Assembly: GCF_004006315.1 (NCBI RefSeq)
Contig: NZ_CP026530.1
Coordinates: 1,600,001 to 1,664,000 of the forward strand
DNA: 64,000 bases
Direction: 5' to 3'
DNA from: Nautilia sp. PV-1
Lineage (GTDB): Bacteria > Campylobacterota > Campylobacteria > Campylobacterales > Nautiliaceae
The notes under the pieces are model-generated. The model was given only the letters and a program-made list of their open reading frames with translations, had not been told where the DNA came from and did no database searches. Below, one piece after another: positions 14,931 through 62,390 of this stretch; positions within the stretch are counted from its first letter, which is position 1, and each line of letters starts with the position of its first letter. The translations under genes were made by a program, and so were the position numbers.

Positions 14931-14949
14931 ATAATGGTTTTTTATTTTT

Positions 14950-14977
14950 AACTTTTCACTTTTCATTTTTCACTTCT
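14950..14977. repeat. Heptamer array, CACTTTT family (4 units)
   Basis: Four exact 7-bp steps (AACTTTT, CACTTTT, CATTTTT, CACTTCT) directly follow the stop codon of the HlyD gene. With the TATTTGT array beside it, two unrelated heptamer families fill this one intergenic gap. Confidence 0.75.
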
Positions 14978-16087: not shown

Positions 16088-17411
16088 AATCTCCTCCGTT
16101 AATTTTCAGTTTTATATCCAAAAAGAATATTTTCGCAATAATTGCCTCTTTTTTAGCTCTTGCAGTAGCAAGTTTAGCTATTGCGTCATTTAAATCACTG
16201 CTGTCCGCAAGACCTTCGTCAAATTTCGCTTTTATATATTCATAATAACTTTCTCTTGCTTTTATCTCTTCTTTTGCAGCATTAAGCTGTGTATAAAGTG
16301 CCCTTAAAGTCTGTTTATCGTTTTTATAATCCGTTTTAATTTTGTTCATATAATCATTATAAAAAATCATTTCGGCGTTTTTTGCAAGCTTTGCGGCTTC
16401 CAAATCGGCTTTTTTCGCTCCGCCGTCAAAAATATTGAATTTTATTCCAAGAGCTATATATGATTTATCCGTATTTTGATAATCGTTTCTGCTAAGAGCC
16501 AGGTTGTCCCCCTCTTTTTTCAGTCCGGCTTCTACTCCTATTTGAGGGTAATATTTTGATTTAGCCAGTTTTATATCGGTATCCGAAATTCTTAATGCTT
16601 CTTTTATGGCTTTTACGTCAGGTCTGTTTTTAAAATCAGGCTTATACAAAGTTTTTTGTATATTCACACCGTCTATATCTTTTATTTTTTTATTTAGAAG
16701 ATAGCTTAACATGTTTATTAAAGAAAGCTTTTGAGACCGGGTTTCTTTTATGGATGCAGTTATTTCATAATATTTTGCATTAATCTCATCTACGCTCGAT
16801 TTATTTATAAGACCCTCTTTATAAAACCCCATAGCTTTTTCTTTTGCGATTATCAATGCGTCTTTAGCCTTTTGAAGGGCGTAAAGCTTTGCTTTAAGAG
16901 CATATATGTCAGAATATATTTCCGCCGCGTTTAAAATAAGCTCTCTTTTAACATTCTGAAGAGTAAGTTTTTCTTTTATAAGTTCAAGTTTGGCTTTGTT
17001 TATCATATTACTCAACGCAAAACCAGTAAATAAAGGATATGAATATTTGATAACACCCATAAAATGATTTTTATCCGCCATAGGAAGCTCACTGTTAAAA
17101 GTCTGATATACTAAATGTACACCGTCCGGAGCAACTGCAACAGGCTGAACGGTTGTCAGTTTCATAACCGGTCTGTCAAACATATGTACTGCATTATATT
17201 CGGCATCAAGACTTCCGAAATTTTTTGCCTGTACGGCTTTTAGTTTCTGCTCGTATATTTTTACTTTTTGAGCTTCCATTTTATATTTTAATGAATTAGT
17301 TATATCTTTTTGTATATCACTAAAACTTTCTGCATTTAAAAATAAAGAAAATAACAAAAGTAAAAACAATTTCTTTAATTCTCCATTCTCAATTCTCAAT
17401 TCTCCATTCAT
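16077..17411 (-). CDS. TolC-family outer membrane efflux protein
   Basis: About 444 residues with a signal peptide and two repeated helical/strand halves typical of TolC channels (for example KKADLEAAKLAKNAEMIF and the C-terminal ARESYYEYIKAKFDEGLADSSDLNDA region). I start it at the ATG at 17411, which overlaps the upstream stop as ATGA and has AAAGGAA upstream; an open frame continues further up but is inside emrB. The first 13 codons (MNGELRIENGELK) are encoded by an ATTCTCC/ATTCTCA heptamer array, so the secretion signal begins only at about residue 14. It probably serves both the EmrAB-like and the ABC pump. Confidence 0.88.
   Translation of the reverse strand: MNGELRIENGELKKLFLLLLFSLFLNAESFSDIQKDITNSLKYKMEAQKVKIYEQKLKAVQAKNFGSLDAEYNAVHMFDRPVMKLTTVQPVAVAPDGVHLVYQTFNSELPMADKNHFMGVIKYSYPLFTGFALSNMINKAKLELIKEKLTLQNVKRELILNAAEIYSDIYALKAKLYALQKAKDALIIAKEKAMGFYKEGLINKSSVDEINAKYYEITASIKETRSQKLSLINMLSYLLNKKIKDIDGVNIQKTLYKPDFKNRPDVKAIKEALRISDTDIKLAKSKYYPQIGVEAGLKKEGDNLALSRNDYQNTDKSYIALGIKFNIFDGGAKKADLEAAKLAKNAEMIFYNDYMNKIKTDYKNDKQTLRALYTQLNAAKEEIKARESYYEYIKAKFDEGLADSSDLNDAIAKLATARAKKEAIIAKIFFLDIKLKINGGDYEF
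17378..17405. repeat. Heptamer array, ATTCTCC/ATTCTCA family (4 units)
   Basis: Four exact 7-bp units in perfect register lie inside the first codons of the TolC-family gene and encode its repetitive GEL-RIEN-GEL N-terminus. The following unit (ATTCATA) is degenerate and carries the start codon. Confidence 0.85.
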
Positions 17412-18934
17412 ATCGTTCCTTTCACTTTTCTTTTTTTCACAAACAACAGGGCAAAAACAAACAAACTTCCTACAAATCCCCAAAATCCTGCATCAAGCCA
17501 GACGTATTTATACCCGTAATTGGCACTCATAAACGATTCGAGCATTCTGAATATCTCTATTCCGGCTTTTCCGAAATAACTCTCAAGTGCAGAAACAAAA
17601 TCACTGACTATATGGTGATTCTGAATACTTACCATCCCGTCAAACTCTTTATTGCTGTAATATACTAAATTGTTAGTAGCAATAGCAGTTCCGAAACTGC
17701 CTCCTATAAATCTTACATAATCCATAGTCATAATACCCTGCTCTATTTTTCCGTTAGAGTTATTCATAACAAGCACGGTAATCGGAGCAAAGAAAAGACC
17801 CATTGCTATTCCAAAAGGCATCGTTTTAAGCACAGCTTCATAAAACGGCGTATAATAATTAAGAGTCGGAAAAAGCACAAACGAACTGTAAAGGTATATT
17901 ACAGCCCCCACAATCAGTACAGGCACGGGAGAGAATTTATCACTTAAAGCCCCGGCTATCATACTAAACACACCTATCCATATACCAAATCCCAAAACAC
18001 CGAGCCCTGTCTGAATGGAACTCAGCCCTTTAATATGCTCATAAAACATCGGAATCAGATAAAAATACTGATACATTGAAAATCCAAGCAGTACAAAATA
18101 TATAAGAATTCCCAGAGAATAATTAGGATTTTTAAACAATGTATAATCAAACAGCGACTCTTTAGAATAATATTCGCTCATAATAAAAAATAACGTGCCG
18201 AAAAACGTAGCAAAAGCAAGATATACAATTAAAGAAGAATTAAACCATCCATACTGCTGCCCTTTGCTAAGCAGTATCAAAAGTGCCACAGTTGCAACAG
18301 TTAAAAACGCGACGGATATGAAATTCAGCTTTTCATCTTTTCTTTCATCCCTGTCCGGAAGAAGGAGTGAACCGAATATAACCAGAACAATACCGATAGG
18401 AACATTTACAAAAAATACCGCCCTCCAGCTGAACCATTCCGTCAGATACCCTCCGAGTGTCGGACCTATCGCCGGTGCAAAGGCAACTCCAAGGGCAAAT
18501 ATACCCATGGCAATCCCTCTTTTTTCAGGCGGGAAAAAGCCAAAAAGCATCGCCTGGGCCGTAACCATTATAAGCGCTTCGGCAAACCCCTGAATCACCC
18601 TGGCGACTATTATAAAAGAAAGCGAATTTGATATACCGCATAAAAAAGAAGCCACCGTAAAAACACCCACGGCTGTTATGTATATCCACTTGTTTCCGAA
18701 TTTTTTAATCATCCACTCAACAAGCAAAAGCCCAACCGCAGCGGCAATCATATACGCGGTAATTACCCACTGCACACCGTACATATCGGTTGAGAGCGGC
18801 CCCTTAAGACGAGGCACGATAATATCTACGACAGTAGTGTCAAGTACCGCCATGAAAGCACCGACAACAACTAACAACACCCATGTTGTTAAATTGAGAA
18901 TTGAGAATTGAGAATTGAGAATTTTAGTTTGCAT
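17408..18934 (-). CDS. MFS multidrug exporter, DHA2 (EmrB/QacA-like) family
   Basis: This is a proton-driven drug exporter of about 508 residues and roughly 14 membrane helices. Helix 1 holds the DHA2-type motif VLDTTVVDIIVPRL, and WFSWRAVFFVNVPIG follows helix 5. With the upstream HlyD-type EmrA homologue it would form an EmrAB-like pump using the downstream TolC protein. The ATG at 18934 is preferred to a TTG three codons earlier. Codons 5 to 14 (ILNSQFSILN) are a translated heptamer array, placed between the start codon and helix 1. A four-helix-bundle gene now separates this gene from emrA. Confidence 0.92.
   Translation of the reverse strand: MQTKILNSQFSILNLTTWVLLVVVGAFMAVLDTTVVDIIVPRLKGPLSTDMYGVQWVITAYMIAAAVGLLLVEWMIKKFGNKWIYITAVGVFTVASFLCGISNSLSFIIVARVIQGFAEALIMVTAQAMLFGFFPPEKRGIAMGIFALGVAFAPAIGPTLGGYLTEWFSWRAVFFVNVPIGIVLVIFGSLLLPDRDERKDEKLNFISVAFLTVATVALLILLSKGQQYGWFNSSLIVYLAFATFFGTLFFIMSEYYSKESLFDYTLFKNPNYSLGILIYFVLLGFSMYQYFYLIPMFYEHIKGLSSIQTGLGVLGFGIWIGVFSMIAGALSDKFSPVPVLIVGAVIYLYSSFVLFPTLNYYTPFYEAVLKTMPFGIAMGLFFAPITVLVMNNSNGKIEQGIMTMDYVRFIGGSFGTAIATNNLVYYSNKEFDGMVSIQNHHIVSDFVSALESYFGKAGIEIFRMLESFMSANYGYKYVWLDAGFWGFVGSLFVFALLFVKKRKVKGTI
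18893..18920. repeat. Heptamer array, ATTGAGA family (4 units), left of four-helix-bundle gene 1
   Basis: Four perfect copies of ATTGAGA on the plus strand lie inside the emrB-like N-terminus, three bases beyond the stop codon of the four-helix-bundle gene. The array on the other side of that gene reads ATTCTCC on the plus strand, so the two are inverted. Confidence 0.9.
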
Positions 18935-19286
18935 TTTTAACAATTCTGACTAAAATTTTTGTTACTTCTTCTAAAAGCGCTAAAACTTGCTCAGTTTTTT
19001 GCTTAGGCAAATAATCACTAGCAATTAATAAATCCGGCCAATACTTAGTTTCCCTTGCCTCCTTTAAAGCAATAGACATTTTATTTCTAAAATCCTTTTT
19101 ACTGATACCGTCTAACGCTTCAACAACATTTGCTCCAATAGATGTACCGCTTCTAAGCAACTGTTTTGAGAGTACAAATTCTTTTTTTTCATTTAAATAC
19201 TTATACACTTTTATTATTTTGAGAGAAAGTTCAAACGTTTTGTCTTTAATAATATTTGTTTTTAATTCTCCATTCTCCATTCTCAA
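18924..19286 (-). CDS. Four-helix-bundle protein, 23S intervening-sequence (IVP/S23) family, copy 1
   Basis: About 120 residues of the PF05635/TIGR02436 family, known from proteins encoded in 23S rRNA intervening sequences and related to the Avd accessory protein of diversity-generating retroelements. The hallmark LLRSGTSIGANVVEAL is followed by KDFRNKMSIALKEARETKYW. Function in the family is not established. The gene starts inside a heptamer array (TTG at 19286, or ATG at 19280 with GGAG eight bases upstream, itself part of the array); its first residues RMENGEL are array-coded. It sits between emrA and emrB, overlapping both, and is unrelated to efflux, which points to insertion. Confidence 0.9.
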   Translation of the reverse strand: MRMENGELKTNIIKDKTFELSLKIIKVYKYLNEKKEFVLSKQLLRSGTSIGANVVEALDGISKKDFRNKMSIALKEARETKYWPDLLIASDYLPKQKTEQVLALLEEVTKILVRIVKNAN

Positions 19287-19299
19287 TTCTCCATTCTTT
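19265..19299. repeat. Heptamer array, ATTCTCC family (5 units), right of four-helix-bundle gene 1
   Basis: Five exact 7-bp units (ATTCTCC, ATTCTCC, ATTCTCA, ATTCTCC, ATTCTTT on the plus strand) span the emrA stop codon and the start of the four-helix-bundle gene. One unit supplies the TGA stop of emrA, others the GGAG and ATG of the next gene. Confidence 0.9.
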
Positions 19300-20404
19300 T
19301 AATCTCAACTTCTCCTCCCATTCCTACAAGCACGCCTTGAGGAACTTTATTAAATTTTATTCTTACATAAAATCTCTGAGCTAATTTTGTAAATTCCCCG
19401 CTGCTGATATCCCTTGGGACAAGTGCAAAAGTTGCGGCGCTTGCAGGCAGGATTTTACTTACATATCCTTCAAAATCCTTATCCAGCGCGTCTATATGGA
19501 TTTTAACTTTACATCCCGGCTTGATACCTTTCATTTTTGTTTCTTCCAACAAATCCAAAACATATAAATCTTTAGGATTTACAACACTTAAAACCTTTGT
19601 TCCGGCATCTACAACCTCATCGTTATTTGCAAATTTTTTAGCAACCCTGCCATTTATAGGAGAATAAATATATGAATTTTTTATATTTTGATTTACCAGT
19701 CCTAATTTGTCATTTAAGGCTTTTAACTGATTTTGCTGAGCTTCTATTGATTTTTGAAGTCTTAAAAGCTCTTTTTTATTGTTTTGTACAAGTTTAATTT
19801 TCAGATCAAGCGTTTTGTTATTCAACATCAACGCTTCAAGTTTTCTCTCTTCTGCTTTAATCTGATCTTTTAACGAATCAAAAGCCACTTTTACGGTATC
19901 GTATTTTTCTTTTGAAACTTTATGTTCCATGTACAATCTTTTAAATTTTTTATAGTCGTTTTTTAATTTTTGCAGTTTGTATTTCATTGCGTCAATAGAA
20001 AATGCCATGGCTTCTATGTTTTTTTGCAATTTGTCTTTTTCATTATTCAAAAGATTTAAATTAGTATTTATATCGTTAGAAAGTTTTTCTTTTTGTATAA
20101 CGGTCGCTTTTATTTTGTCTTCTAAAGCATTAATGTTATTTTGCAGTTCTTTTTTTTGAAATATAAGCTCTTTTGTTTCAAGCTTAGCAAGAAGCTGTCC
20201 TTTTTTAACATTATCGCCCTCGTTGACATATATTCTTTCTATTTTTCCCGGAAGTTTAAAGCTCAAAAAAGTAAGAGAATCCGATTTCACAAATACGGCG
20301 TTGCTTTCGGCATAATTTTTGTTAAAAACTATATATTTATACAATCCAAAGACACCTGCAAGTATCAAAATAATAAAAGTAAAAAGTGCTATTTTCTTTT
20401 TCAT
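19283..20404 (-). CDS. HlyD-family membrane fusion protein (EmrA-like)
   Basis: This 373-residue adaptor has one N-terminal membrane helix (KIALFTFIILILAGVFGLYK), lipoyl halves (LPGKIERIYVNEGDNVKKGQ and SPINGRVAKKFANNDEVV) flanking a long coiled coil (about 80 to 240), and a C-terminal barrel ending GMGGEVEIKR. The last residues (MEN) come from the heptamer array that overlaps its stop codon. It is the first gene of the operon, after a good promoter, and would pair with the MFS exporter two genes downstream. Confidence 0.9.
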   Translation of the reverse strand: MKKKIALFTFIILILAGVFGLYKYIVFNKNYAESNAVFVKSDSLTFLSFKLPGKIERIYVNEGDNVKKGQLLAKLETKELIFQKKELQNNINALEDKIKATVIQKEKLSNDINTNLNLLNNEKDKLQKNIEAMAFSIDAMKYKLQKLKNDYKKFKRLYMEHKVSKEKYDTVKVAFDSLKDQIKAEERKLEALMLNNKTLDLKIKLVQNNKKELLRLQKSIEAQQNQLKALNDKLGLVNQNIKNSYIYSPINGRVAKKFANNDEVVDAGTKVLSVVNPKDLYVLDLLEETKMKGIKPGCKVKIHIDALDKDFEGYVSKILPASAATFALVPRDISSGEFTKLAQRFYVRIKFNKVPQGVLVGMGGEVEIKRMEN

Positions 20405-40875: not shown

Positions 40876-40903
40876 TTTAGTTTATTAGTTATTTGTTATT
40901 GGT
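40876..40903. repeat. Heptamer array, TATTNGT family (4 units), left of four-helix-bundle gene 2
   Basis: Four exact units on the plus strand (TTTAGTT, TATTAGT, TATTTGT, TATTGGT) overlap the 3' end of the second four-helix-bundle gene and encode its last residues DTNNK. The array on the other side reads ACCAATA, its reverse complement. Confidence 0.85.
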
Positions 40904-41260
40904 ATCATTTTTATTTTTTATGCTTTTTATAAAACCGTTTAGTCTTTTTCCTAAAATTTCCAAACTTTTTATAATATGGTCATATTCATTTTTTTCAATT
41001 AAACTTCTCTTATACAGTAAATGAATCCAATGTTTTGATTCCCACAACGACCCTCTTGCATTATAATAAAATTTTACACTATCTTTATAATGAAACCTTC
41101 CATAACCCTCTGCAATATTTGCACCGATTGAATCAATGGAACGAATTACCTGAGATCCGATATTATATTTTAAATCATTACTTAAATCCATGTAAATTTG
41201 CCAAATTTTATCACTTAATTTCAGAGATAATTTATATACTTCCAGTTTTCCTAATTCCAA
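40889..41260 (-). CDS. Four-helix-bundle protein, 23S intervening-sequence (IVP/S23) family, copy 2
   Basis: This 123-residue protein is the second PF05635/TIGR02436 member in the window. The hallmark VIRSIDSIGANIAEGYGRF is followed by KDSVKFYYNARGSLWESKHW. The start is a TTG (41260) with AGGAG six bases upstream. It resembles the first copy only in the family core, so it is not a recent duplicate. It lies between ugd and a comEA-like gene and is bracketed by two TATTNGT heptamer arrays in inverted orientation, the same arrangement as copy 1 but with a different heptamer. Confidence 0.9.
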   Translation of the reverse strand: MELGKLEVYKLSLKLSDKIWQIYMDLSNDLKYNIGSQVIRSIDSIGANIAEGYGRFHYKDSVKFYYNARGSLWESKHWIHLLYKRSLIEKNEYDHIIKSLEILGKRLNGFIKSIKNKNDTNNK

Positions 41261-41276
41261 TATTTTCTCCTAATAT

Positions 41277-41297
41277 ACAAATAACCAATATACCAGT
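41277..41297. repeat. Heptamer array, ACCAATA family (3 units), right of four-helix-bundle gene 2
   Basis: Three exact units on the plus strand (ACAAATA, ACCAATA, TACCAGT), reverse complement of the TATTNGT family, lie just upstream of the Shine-Dalgarno sequence of the second four-helix-bundle gene. Confidence 0.8.
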
Positions 41298-48242: not shown

Positions 48243-48692
48243 TTAATTTAATCTATCAATATTTTTAATCATAATCAGTATATTGTTTTTTTTATCTTTA
48301 AACAAAATTTTTTGACCGTCCGTTTTACAGAAAAATCCTTTCGGACATTTATAGTCTAAAATTTTATCAAAAAAGTCGCTCGGATAACCTTTTGGCAGAT
48401 ATTCTTTAATAAATTTTTCTTTATCCATACATCTGCCGTTAAGACATACAAACGAATTTTTCAGCGTTATTACCACAGGCACGTTTCCGGCCTTGTAAAT
48501 TGTCAGTTTCTTATATCCGAATCCTTTTTCCAAAAAACCTTCGTCCGCAGCTTTAAATTTCGGTGTTTTTATTACGGCGTATATGGGTGTGGTTTTAGTC
48601 GCACAACCGGACATCACAGTGAAAAGTGAAAAACAGAAAGTAAAAAATATGACTTTTTTTATAATTCTCAATTCTAAATTCTCCATTCTCAA
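48243..48692 (-). CDS. Small lipoprotein of unknown function
   Basis: I do not recognise a family. The 149-residue product has a lipoprotein signal peptide ending in the lipobox VMSGC (Cys about residue 29) and a mature part with two cysteine pairs (FVCLNGRCMD and YKCPKGFFCK) that could form disulfides. The start is a TTG at 48692 (five to six bases after AAGG) or an ATG two codons later. Both the first ten residues (RMENLELRI) and the hydrophobic core of the signal peptide (FCFSLFTV) are coded by heptamer arrays of two families. Confidence 0.75.
   Translation of the reverse strand: MRMENLELRIIKKVIFFTFCFSLFTVMSGCATKTTPIYAVIKTPKFKAADEGFLEKGFGYKKLTIYKAGNVPVVITLKNSFVCLNGRCMDKEKFIKEYLPKGYPSDFFDKILDYKCPKGFFCKTDGQKILFKDKKNNILIMIKNIDRLN
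48617..48644. repeat. Heptamer array, AAGTGAA family (4 units), in the lipoprotein signal peptide
   Basis: CAGTGAA, AAGTGAA, AAACAGA and AAGTAAA in 7-bp register encode part of the hydrophobic segment of the lipoprotein signal peptide. It is the same family as the array near 62.36 kb. Confidence 0.65.
48664..48691. repeat. Heptamer array, ATTCTCA family (4 units), at the lipoprotein start
   Basis: ATTCTCA, ATTCTAA, ATTCTCC and ATTCTCA in exact register cover the first codons of the lipoprotein gene, just after the Sua5-like stop codon. Confidence 0.85.
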
Positions 48693-48694
48693 TT

Positions 48695-57350: not shown

Positions 57351-58598
57351 TTACAAATTTTTTATTAAACTTTTTATAACTTCCCTGTCGCTGTAATCTA
57401 CTTTTTTATTGCAATACTGGATGTAATTTTCATCGCCTTTGCCTAAAACCATTAAAATATACCCTTTTTCTTTAGCTAGCTCTACAGCCCTCTTAACAGC
57501 TTCTTTTCTATCGGTAATAATCTCAAACGGTTTGCTTTTTATACCCTTTGCGATTTCTTTACATATATCTTCCGCTTTTTCACATCTTGGATTATCTTCC
57601 GTAATAATTATATAATCGGCATATTTATCGGCAACCTCGCCCATTAAAGGCCGTTTATCTTTATCCCTGTCTCCTCCCGCTCCGAAAACAACTATTTTTT
57701 TGCCTTCTACGGCGCTTAGCACTTTTTCCATTCCGTCCGGCGTATGTGCAAAGTCAACAATTGACATAGGATTTTTCGACACTATTTCCATTCTGCCGGG
57801 GACACCCTTGAAATCTTTTAATTGAGAATTGAGAATTGAGAATTGAGAATTAGTTAAAATTTCCGCTGTTTTTAAAGCAAGAGAAAAATTCATTTTATTG
57901 AATTCTCCTGCCATTGGAATATCATCAACTATAGGTTTGTCTAAAACATATAAATTGTTTGCATTAACTTTAAACTCATAACCACCTACATCTACTAATG
58001 AAAAATTTGAATTCTCAATTCTCAATTCTTCATTCTCCATTCTCAATTTTCCATTAACCACTTTCAGAGCATCATCTTTTAAAAAGCTCTCTTTAACTTT
58101 TTTATATTCTTCCATTGTTTTATGAAAATCAAGATGGTCTTGTGAAAACGAAGTCAGTATTTTAGCCGTAAACTCAATGCCCTCAGTCCTTTGCTGAACT
58201 ATTGCATGCGAGCTTACTTCCATAATGTAAAAGTCCGGTTCGTATTGTACGGCTCTTTTGAGAGTTGTGATTATAGGAGGAGTTGTAAGTGTTTTGATTT
58301 CTTTTTTTTCACCGTTTAAATAAAATCCTTCGGTTCCCTGTATTCCTACACTGTAACCCAGCTGATGTAACAGATACCCTAAAACGAATGCGGTAGTTGT
58401 TTTACCATTTGTTCCTGTAATGCCGATAAATTTGGTTTTAAGATTTAATGATTTTATAAATTCTGCAGGTGTTAGAAAATTTTGAATATTAACAGCGTAT
58501 TTACTGTTTTGAGCGGTTTTTAAAAATATTTTACTATCATCAAGGTCCTGTGTGTTATCTGTAATCAATCCGTTTAATAACAGTTTTTTATAATCCAT
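57351..58598 (-). CDS. murE: UDP-MurNAc-tripeptide synthetase MurE, with two in-frame heptamer arrays
   Basis: MurE adds meso-diaminopimelate to UDP-MurNAc-L-Ala-D-Glu. The 415-residue product has the ATP loop GITGTNGKTTTAFVLGYLL, EVSSHAIVQQRTEGIEF, FSQDHLDFHKTMEEYKKVK, KGVPGRMEIV and the DAP-specific EDNPRCEKAEDI. It lacks most of the N-terminal domain, as in other Campylobacterota. Two ATTCTCA-family arrays are in frame: one codes for GKLRMENEELRIEN after LKVVN, the other for NSQFSILNSQ before LKDFKGVPGR. Both lie at surface-loop positions of the family fold. Confidence 0.94.
   Translation of the reverse strand: MDYKKLLLNGLITDNTQDLDDSKIFLKTAQNSKYAVNIQNFLTPAEFIKSLNLKTKFIGITGTNGKTTTAFVLGYLLHQLGYSVGIQGTEGFYLNGEKKEIKTLTTPPIITTLKRAVQYEPDFYIMEVSSHAIVQQRTEGIEFTAKILTSFSQDHLDFHKTMEEYKKVKESFLKDDALKVVNGKLRMENEELRIENSNFSLVDVGGYEFKVNANNLYVLDKPIVDDIPMAGEFNKMNFSLALKTAEILTNSQFSILNSQLKDFKGVPGRMEIVSKNPMSIVDFAHTPDGMEKVLSAVEGKKIVVFGAGGDRDKDKRPLMGEVADKYADYIIITEDNPRCEKAEDICKEIAKGIKSKPFEIITDRKEAVKRAVELAKEKGYILMVLGKGDENYIQYCNKKVDYSDREVIKSLIKNL
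57821..57848. repeat. Heptamer array, ATTGAGA family (4 units), in frame in murE
   Basis: Four perfect ATTGAGA copies on the plus strand encode NSQFSILNSQ just before the conserved KGVPGRME segment. Confidence 0.92.
58011..58059. repeat. Heptamer array, ATTCTCA family (7 units), in frame in murE
   Basis: Seven 7-bp units in perfect register (ATTCTCA, ATTCTCA, ATTCTTC, ATTCTCC, ATTCTCA, ATTTTCC, ATTAACC) encode the residues between LKVV and SNFSLVDVGG. Orientation is inverted relative to the array 160 bp away. Confidence 0.92.
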
Positions 58599-62355: not shown

Positions 62356-62390
62356 AAAGTAAAAAGTAAAAAGTGAAAAGTGAAAAAGAG
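62356..62390. repeat. Heptamer array, AAAGTGA family (5 units), upstream of the alpha operon promoter
   Basis: Five exact 7-bp units (AAAGTAA, AAAGTAA, AAAGTGA, AAAGTGA, AAAAGAG) lie immediately upstream of the -10 box of the alpha operon, where a -35 box would be. Confidence 0.88.

Follow-up and report, generated by a model that had tools for sequence, protein, structure and literature searches.

Structures of PF05635 proteins have been solved; to our knowledge, the function of these proteins is unknown. Avd, a related protein of diversity-generating retroelements, is a pentamer. The 23S rRNA intervening sequence (IVS) is an element of ~430 nt with one PF05635 open reading frame and complementary ends of ~28 bp; it is patchy in distribution and horizontally acquired (PMC4990558). 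In the REP/REPIN-RAYT systems, one protein gene is located between inverted copies of a short repeat, which is possibly dispersed (PMC3116915). Bacterial heptameric tandem repeats have been noted for decades and remain unexplained ('no mechanism is evident', PMC4679880). Heptameric SSRs, such as TAACTGA of Beggiatoaceae, GGGAATC of Xanthomonas and the cyanobacterial STRR, occur close to genes and in some cases form inverted pairs (PMC4679880, PMC4692102). In the literature searched, we found no description of heptamer arms, of a match between arms and protein, or of a residue-base code.

The window, which is the whole stretch of 64,000 nucleotides analysed here, belongs to the single contig (1,791,100 bases) of the Nautilia sp. 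PV-1 genome (G000). It contains one PF05635 four-helix-bundle (4HB) gene at 18924..19286 on the minus strand, with a Pfam E-value of 3e-27 and a profile score of 95.3 bits against the gathering cut-off of 33.8. The gene product is 120 residues in length when counted from TTG; one ATG is in frame two codons downstream. On the same strand, the gene is flanked by an emrA homologue (19283..20404), encoding a HlyD-type membrane-fusion protein, and an emrB homologue (17408..18943), encoding an MFS permease. The 4HB start region overlaps the emrA stop, and the true start of emrB is probably the ATG at 18934, with an 11-nt overlap with the 4HB stop. The coordinates and the HlyD-type and MFS Pfam matches thus agree with the initial annotation, which placed the gene between emrA and emrB homologues, overlapping both.

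Two heptamer arrays were located by the tandem-repeat scan. The 5' arm (19265..19297, minus strand) is built of AATGGAG/AATTGAG when read toward the gene on the coding strand. In forward letters it reads ATTCTCC/ATTCTCA, inverted compared to the 3' arm (18892..18923, plus strand). The 3' arm is 32 nt in length and consists of four AATTGAG units followed by AATT; it matches the unit at 100%, is error-free and contains five AATT boxes. The gene is therefore bracketed by inverted arrays, as had been described. Also seen in the sequence is the proposed coding role of the arrays: the 5' arm provides the end of emrA and the start region of the 4HB gene, and the 3' arm is read as codons of the emrB N-terminus.

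To assess the generality of this architecture, PF05635 relatives were drawn from 84,980 species genomes (80 loci) and from whole-genome searches. Among their hosts are Bacteroidota, Clostridia, Cyanobacteria, Ignavibacteria, Verrucomicrobiota, Acidobacteria, candidate phyla and others. In 61% of 140 loci, the PF05635 gene is flanked on each side by period-7 arrays, compared to 0.14% of 700 control intervals taken from the same loci; the enrichment of flanking heptamers, which had been proposed as a check, is thus borne out. No enrichment comparable to that of period 7 was observed for periods 4–6 and 8–13 around the genes of these 140 loci. Strong inverted complementarity is present in 83% of 180 loci, and 8 lack any trace of arrays. 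Arms are most often 32 nt in length, corresponding to five AAT[T/G] boxes at seven-base spacing; on the left as on the right, the modal number of boxes is five (45/86 and 47/86, respectively). The two arms of one locus share the heptamer in inverted orientation, with a Hamming distance of 0–1 in 68 of 93 own pairs and in 46 of 554 permuted pairs. The match of the left arm is 20.3 with its own right arm and 10.4 with the right arms of other loci (p 1e-38). Paralogues within one genome use different heptamers, as for the 13 paralogues in G341.

It could be argued that heptamer arrays are simple repeats that arise by chance or slippage and are frequent between genes, and that PF05635 genes are merely located among them. 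Heptameric repeats are indeed over-represented in many bacterial genomes (PMC4692102). The within-locus controls, the arm matching, the inverted orientation, the five-box mode and the residue-base correlation described below all contradict this explanation, and we regard it as highly improbable.

Neither mirrored unit order nor equal copy number between the arms is significant in general (p 0.17, rho −0.02). Copying of whole arms is unsupported for this reason, and the idea that one arm is an in-register copy of the other was rejected, despite the striking cases of L124, the Nostoc loci L365/L369 and L368. In L368, one dispersed Nostoc repeat (AATGGACTAACGTCCCGCTCCGCTAACGC) is located within both arms (about 1395–1495 and 1850–1905) and is mirrored.

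Several variants of the arrangement were also observed. In a few loci, the inverted arrays around the PF05635 gene have a period of 6 (L246, L250) or 8 (L041, L038, L089, L104) instead of 7. Several cassettes with different repeats are clustered within 10–45 kb in L246 (G262), L248–L250 (G106) and L251–L253 (G294). On cyanobacterial plasmids (L373, L377) and one Monoglobus plasmid (L376), 4HB cassettes are located between cas2/cas1 and between hsdS/hsdR. Further cassettes, in sense orientation, precede tmRNA or tRNA genes, mostly by no more than a few tens of bases (L126, L131, L132, L143, L151, L152, L181, L184, L186); several clostridial loci have this arrangement.

The Nautilia genome itself contains five PF05635 genes, one of which has two stops. 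Inverted heptamers surround each of the five, with a different heptamer in every case: the AAGTGGAT/TTGTGAAG type, AAGGTTG/AAGGATG, TTATTTG/TTATTGG, AATTGAG/AATGGAG (the emr cassette) and GTAGTAA. The TTATTTG/TTATTGG cassette is also in the window. Its gene (40934..41248, minus strand) belongs to the second clade and encodes '..IAEGYGRFHYKD..'; one arm is at 40882..40921 (plus strand), and the opposite, inverted arm, CAAATAACCAATA, is at 41275..41295 (plus strand). At the site orthologous to this cassette (40882–41295, arms TTATTTG/CAAATAA), G002, the closest complete relative of G000, has another PF05635 gene, accompanied by other repeats.

The AF2 model of the window 4HB protein has a pLDDT of 90. 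Its structure matches are, in order, 2RLD, 2GSC and Avd (4DWL, 8UB7). 2RLD (BT_0352), which is 51% identical to the window protein, and 2GSC (Xcc0516) share both the family and the four-helix-bundle fold with it; TM-scores on the query are 0.84–0.89 and 0.77–0.82, respectively. Both were deposited without known function or ligand. Each of the two structures contains five chains, and the Xanthomonas protein Xcc0516 has been called a homopentamer (PMC4990558). If each subunit of a pentamer bound one heptamer, five boxes would be required, in agreement with the observed mode. The one-to-one arrangement is an inference, and no complex was modelled. Pairwise dN/dS of the 4HB gene is mostly 0.04–0.17, indicating that the protein is maintained by purifying selection. 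Values of 0.28–0.55 occur in two near-identical pairs with very few changes, and synonymous sites are close to saturation in many pairs.

The heptamers become more similar as the proteins become more identical, across phyla too (Mantel rho −0.33, 0/500 permutations; also 0/500 with heptamers permuted only within phyla). Among cross-phylum pairs, 54% of those at 70–90% identity have heptamers at most one base apart, compared to about 2% of the distant pairs. Linkage in a moving unit could explain such similarity; it cannot by itself explain the correlation of residue 59. The protein columns were screened for information on the heptamer that overall identity does not supply. Residue 59 (numbered as in the window protein), where helix 2 ends, was the top column, followed by residues 74, 11, 55, 58, 78 and 14. 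In the main clade, with the heptamer in the frame AAT[T/G]N5N6N7, the mutual information between residue 59 and base 5 has a z of 24. Arg/Lys59 is accompanied by C (15/15); Gln59 (13/13) and Asp59 (4/4) by G; Gly59 (20/21) and Tyr/Phe/Met59 (7/8) by A; and Ala59 by T (8/10). With His59 and Glu59, base 5 is mostly G.

Base 5 could be predicted from residue 59 in 71 of 86 cases (83%) with every relative of at least 60% identity left out; the shuffled mean is 23% and the maximum is 42%. For base 5, residue 59 is the best of all columns (0.76, compared to 0.49 for the next and a median of 0.20). Among independent close pairs, the residue class differs in 30 of 35 with unlike base 5 and in 5 of 39 with like base 5 (p 2e-10). 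Loci that were collected later, outside the derivation of the rule, and scored by alignment gave 8 correct predictions out of 10. These tests correct for relatedness only approximately, through pair exclusion and sister pairs, without a full phylogenetic model. The base preference of Ser59 is unsettled: two training loci have A, whereas the later loci, mostly cyanobacterial plasmid cassettes, mostly have C. Residue 11 is associated with base 2, Asn with A and others with G (p 3e-7, relatedness uncorrected). In the second 4HB clade (L217, L248, L255, L036, L260), the motif EGKGR/EGRGR pairs with AAGGNNN heptamers, which hints at a parallel code.

Residue 59 of the window 4HB protein is Asp. For AATTGAG/AATGGAG, the prediction is that this Asp reads the G at base 5; there are no binding data. 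The pairs Arg/Lys-C and Asp/Glu/Gln-G are those expected when the Watson-Crick edge of a single strand is read. Since they fit the gene-ward strand, a single-stranded target is favoured, although this too is inferred. The initial annotation had offered two options, that the protein acts on the arrays or that gene and arrays form an inserted cassette. The first gains support from the prediction of base 5 with relatives excluded, while binding itself remains an inference.

The second option is supported by the co-inheritance of arms and protein across phyla and by an empty site. One cassette of G000 (L002), a gene-plus-arms unit of ~490 bp, is placed exactly at the hldD-hldE junction. In five relatives from several genera (G002, G004, G008, G012, G011), hldD and hldE overlap (ATGA) with nothing between them. 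With the cassette, hldE gains a new start codon and also codons for its N-terminus. An empty site in relatives, as for a transposon with terminal inverted repeats, is thus present; it is the only one resolved to the base.

At the emr junction, for which an empty site had been suggested as a check, the refuting condition that had been set, an old gene order conserved without arrays, is fulfilled only in part. The emrA-4HB-emrB order is common to 8 genomes of 3 genera; the cassette is therefore old here, and a recent insertion was rejected. The involvement of the arrays did hold up, as they are present in 7 of the 8 genomes and the heptamer type changes together with the 4HB type. Asp59 occurs with AATGGAG/AATTGAG (G000, G005), Glu59 with AATGGAA (G002, G003) and Tyr59 with an AGTGAAA arm (G001, G007, G009). 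The left and right arms are not always of the same type (G001, G007). Several genomes without the emr 4HB gene retain the right-hand array.

No mobilising enzyme was found in the searches for RVT_1 in G000 and G002 and for Y1 in several array-rich genomes. A reverse transcriptase acting in trans was rejected because G000 and G002 have no match to RVT_1 (PF00078). G000 has a single Y1 transposase match, in a gene separate from 4HB, and a Y1 transposase in trans was rejected as a consistent partner; no match is listed for the array-rich G106, G294, G257 and G242. At the arm edges of 92 loci, there is no excess of direct repeats that would indicate target-site duplication. With the A1 patterns, no relative was found among viral contigs, and phage records gave only two weak matches.

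The inverted arms could also act at the level of RNA. They would pair in the transcript into a stem of ~30 bp, RNase III would cut it and the 4HB piece would leave the host transcripts; arm matching would then reflect selection for RNA pairing, with the protein incidental. Consistent with this, G085 carries a PF05635 IVS with heptameric inverted arms in its 23S rRNA gene (L245, three copies), the clostridial cassettes mentioned above lie a short distance 5' of tmRNA or tRNA genes, and 4HB genes are co-directional with their neighbours in 92–93% of cases, compared to 82% of control pairs. However, arm mismatches on the transcribed strand do not favour G-U pairs but are biased in the opposite sense (101 vs 156, p 7e-4), and selection on the RNA stem through G-U wobble asymmetry was rejected. 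Moreover, pairing alone leaves the link between residue 59 and base 5 and the seven-base period unexplained. RNA pairing and protein recognition may both be true together, but we consider RNA pairing with an incidental protein unlikely.

Arrays without a 4HB gene occur in Nautiliaceae too, and most arrays of Nautilia are of this solo type. In 464 kb of G000, the over-represented period is 7 (and its multiple 14), with 17 arrays compared to none in third-order Markov shuffles. The AATTGAG family is dispersed in Nautilia (187 pattern matches, compared to 19 for the reversed-pattern control). In the window, one MurE-like ORF contains two in-frame solo arrays on the plus strand, an AATTGAG array at 57820..57851 and an inverted AATTCTC/ATTCTCC array at 58010..58055; related species have another heptamer at the place of the former. 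Across 17 related genomes, the same two loops of this gene are about equal in length, whether they contain other heptamers, decayed arrays or no array; in relatives without arrays, an ordinary loop of comparable length is present instead. Four more solo arrays of the window are also given on the plus strand. The ATTCTCC/AATTCTC array at 17378..17409, in the N-terminus of an outer-membrane efflux ORF, is absent in G002, whereas the places of the AATTCTC array at 48663..48694 and of the AAAGTGA-family array at 62356..62386 are conserved there; the fourth, of the TTTTCAC family, is at 14938..14972. Orthologous solo arrays often keep the place and change the heptamer, as is the case twice in the MurE-like gene.

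Many solo arrays are located at gene starts, as would fit a regulatory role. The 4HB protein would be an RNA- or DNA-binding regulator, with the start-codon arrays as operators and its own arms serving autoregulation. Translational regulation has been proposed for TAACTGA heptamers 5' of start codons (MacGregor 2015, PMC4679880), and the strong purifying selection on 4HB is in line with such a role. On the other hand, arrays are often within coding sequence. The patchy distribution, the multiple copies with different heptamers in one genome, the insertion at unrelated junctions and the empty site point to an element. We regard a role as regulator as unlikely.

The dispersed arrays could instead be non-autonomous elements mobilised by a resident 4HB partner, in the manner of REP/RAYT. 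In Nautilia, two inverted copies of the dispersed AATTGAG bracket one 4HB gene. In addition, PF05635 is carried by 17 of 18 array-rich Campylobacterota genomes and by 20 of the 280 others (298 genomes, p 1e-16, phylogeny uncorrected). However, most solo families of G000 have no matching 4HB gene, and the 4HB protein is not a Y1 transposase. G335, with 8 PF05635 genes, gave only 2 arrays in 300 kb, of other types; its arrays are almost only at cassettes. G004, with 243 pattern matches and no PF05635 match, also points against mobilisation by the 4HB protein, unless the gene was lost recently. We rejected the general rule that the dispersed heptamer is that of the resident 4HB, which is true for AATTGAG in Nautilia and fails in G335. 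Mobilisation of this kind is possible, though we hold it to be rather improbable.

Taken together, we consider it probable that gene and arms form a horizontally moving cassette whose 4HB protein specifically recognises its own flanking heptamers, even in the absence of binding data. The unit, about 430–490 bp in size, would consist of one array of ~5 boxes, the 4HB gene and the first array again in inverted orientation. The 4HB protein, whose solved relatives are pentamers, would be a sequence-specific nucleic-acid-binding protein for the heptamers around its own gene; residue 59 would read base 5, and residues 11, 55, 58, 74 and 78 are candidates for the other contacts. One heptamer per subunit would account for the usual five boxes. 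The cassette would be a horizontally transferred, probably selfish element, located in the sense direction at gene junctions. Its arms may stay matched to the protein because the protein needs both ends for its step, which we infer to be either synapsis of the ends or their protection, jointly with an as yet unidentified enzyme acting in trans; any role in movement is likewise inferred. The Ser59 conflict, the lack of target-site duplication, the unmirrored arms, the solo arrays that switch type in place, the contrast between G335 and Nautilia in where arrays occur, the mismatched emr arms, the missing mobilising enzyme and the single base-resolved empty site were counted against this explanation.

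The link between protein and heptamers would give the PF05635 protein a likely ligand and the heptameric repeats a likely partner, and it proposes a residue-to-base code. For the fullest form of this reading, the arguments seem to us evenly balanced. It holds that 4HB pentameric rings read five tandem heptamers, one per subunit, through a code with residue 59 at its centre, the target probably being single-stranded nucleic acid; that many bacterial heptamer arrays and the 23S IVSs are in the same cassette class; and that recognition could be reprogrammed.

Compared to the known systems, the window cassette shares some features with each. Like REP/RAYT, it has its gene between inverted copies of a dispersed repeat, although for AATTGAG this applies to G000 only. 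Different from RAYT, the partner is a PF05635 four-helix bundle and not a Y1 (HUH) tyrosine transposase; REP repeats are palindromes, whereas the cassette repeats are tandem heptamers. In the heptameric SSR literature, no partner of the PF05635 family has been proposed; the cassette arrays described here are tied to PF05635. The window 4HB protein shares its fold with Avd (TM about 0.75 to 4DWL and 8UB7). Unlike in Avd systems, no reverse transcriptase, template repeat or variable repeat was recognised near the window 4HB gene, and the reverse transcriptase required of a diversity-generating retroelement, in the element or the genome, is missing, with no PF00078 match in G000. The cassette also resembles the 23S IVS that encodes the PF05635/S23 protein, for example in Coxiella and Leptospira, which also has a PF05635 ORF between complementary ends. 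Unlike the 23S IVS, the window cassette, between emrA and emrB, and nearly all others found sit outside rRNA genes. Since the IVS of G085 has heptameric inverted arms, the 23S IVS elements look like a special case of the cassette, and the link would put them into this wider class.
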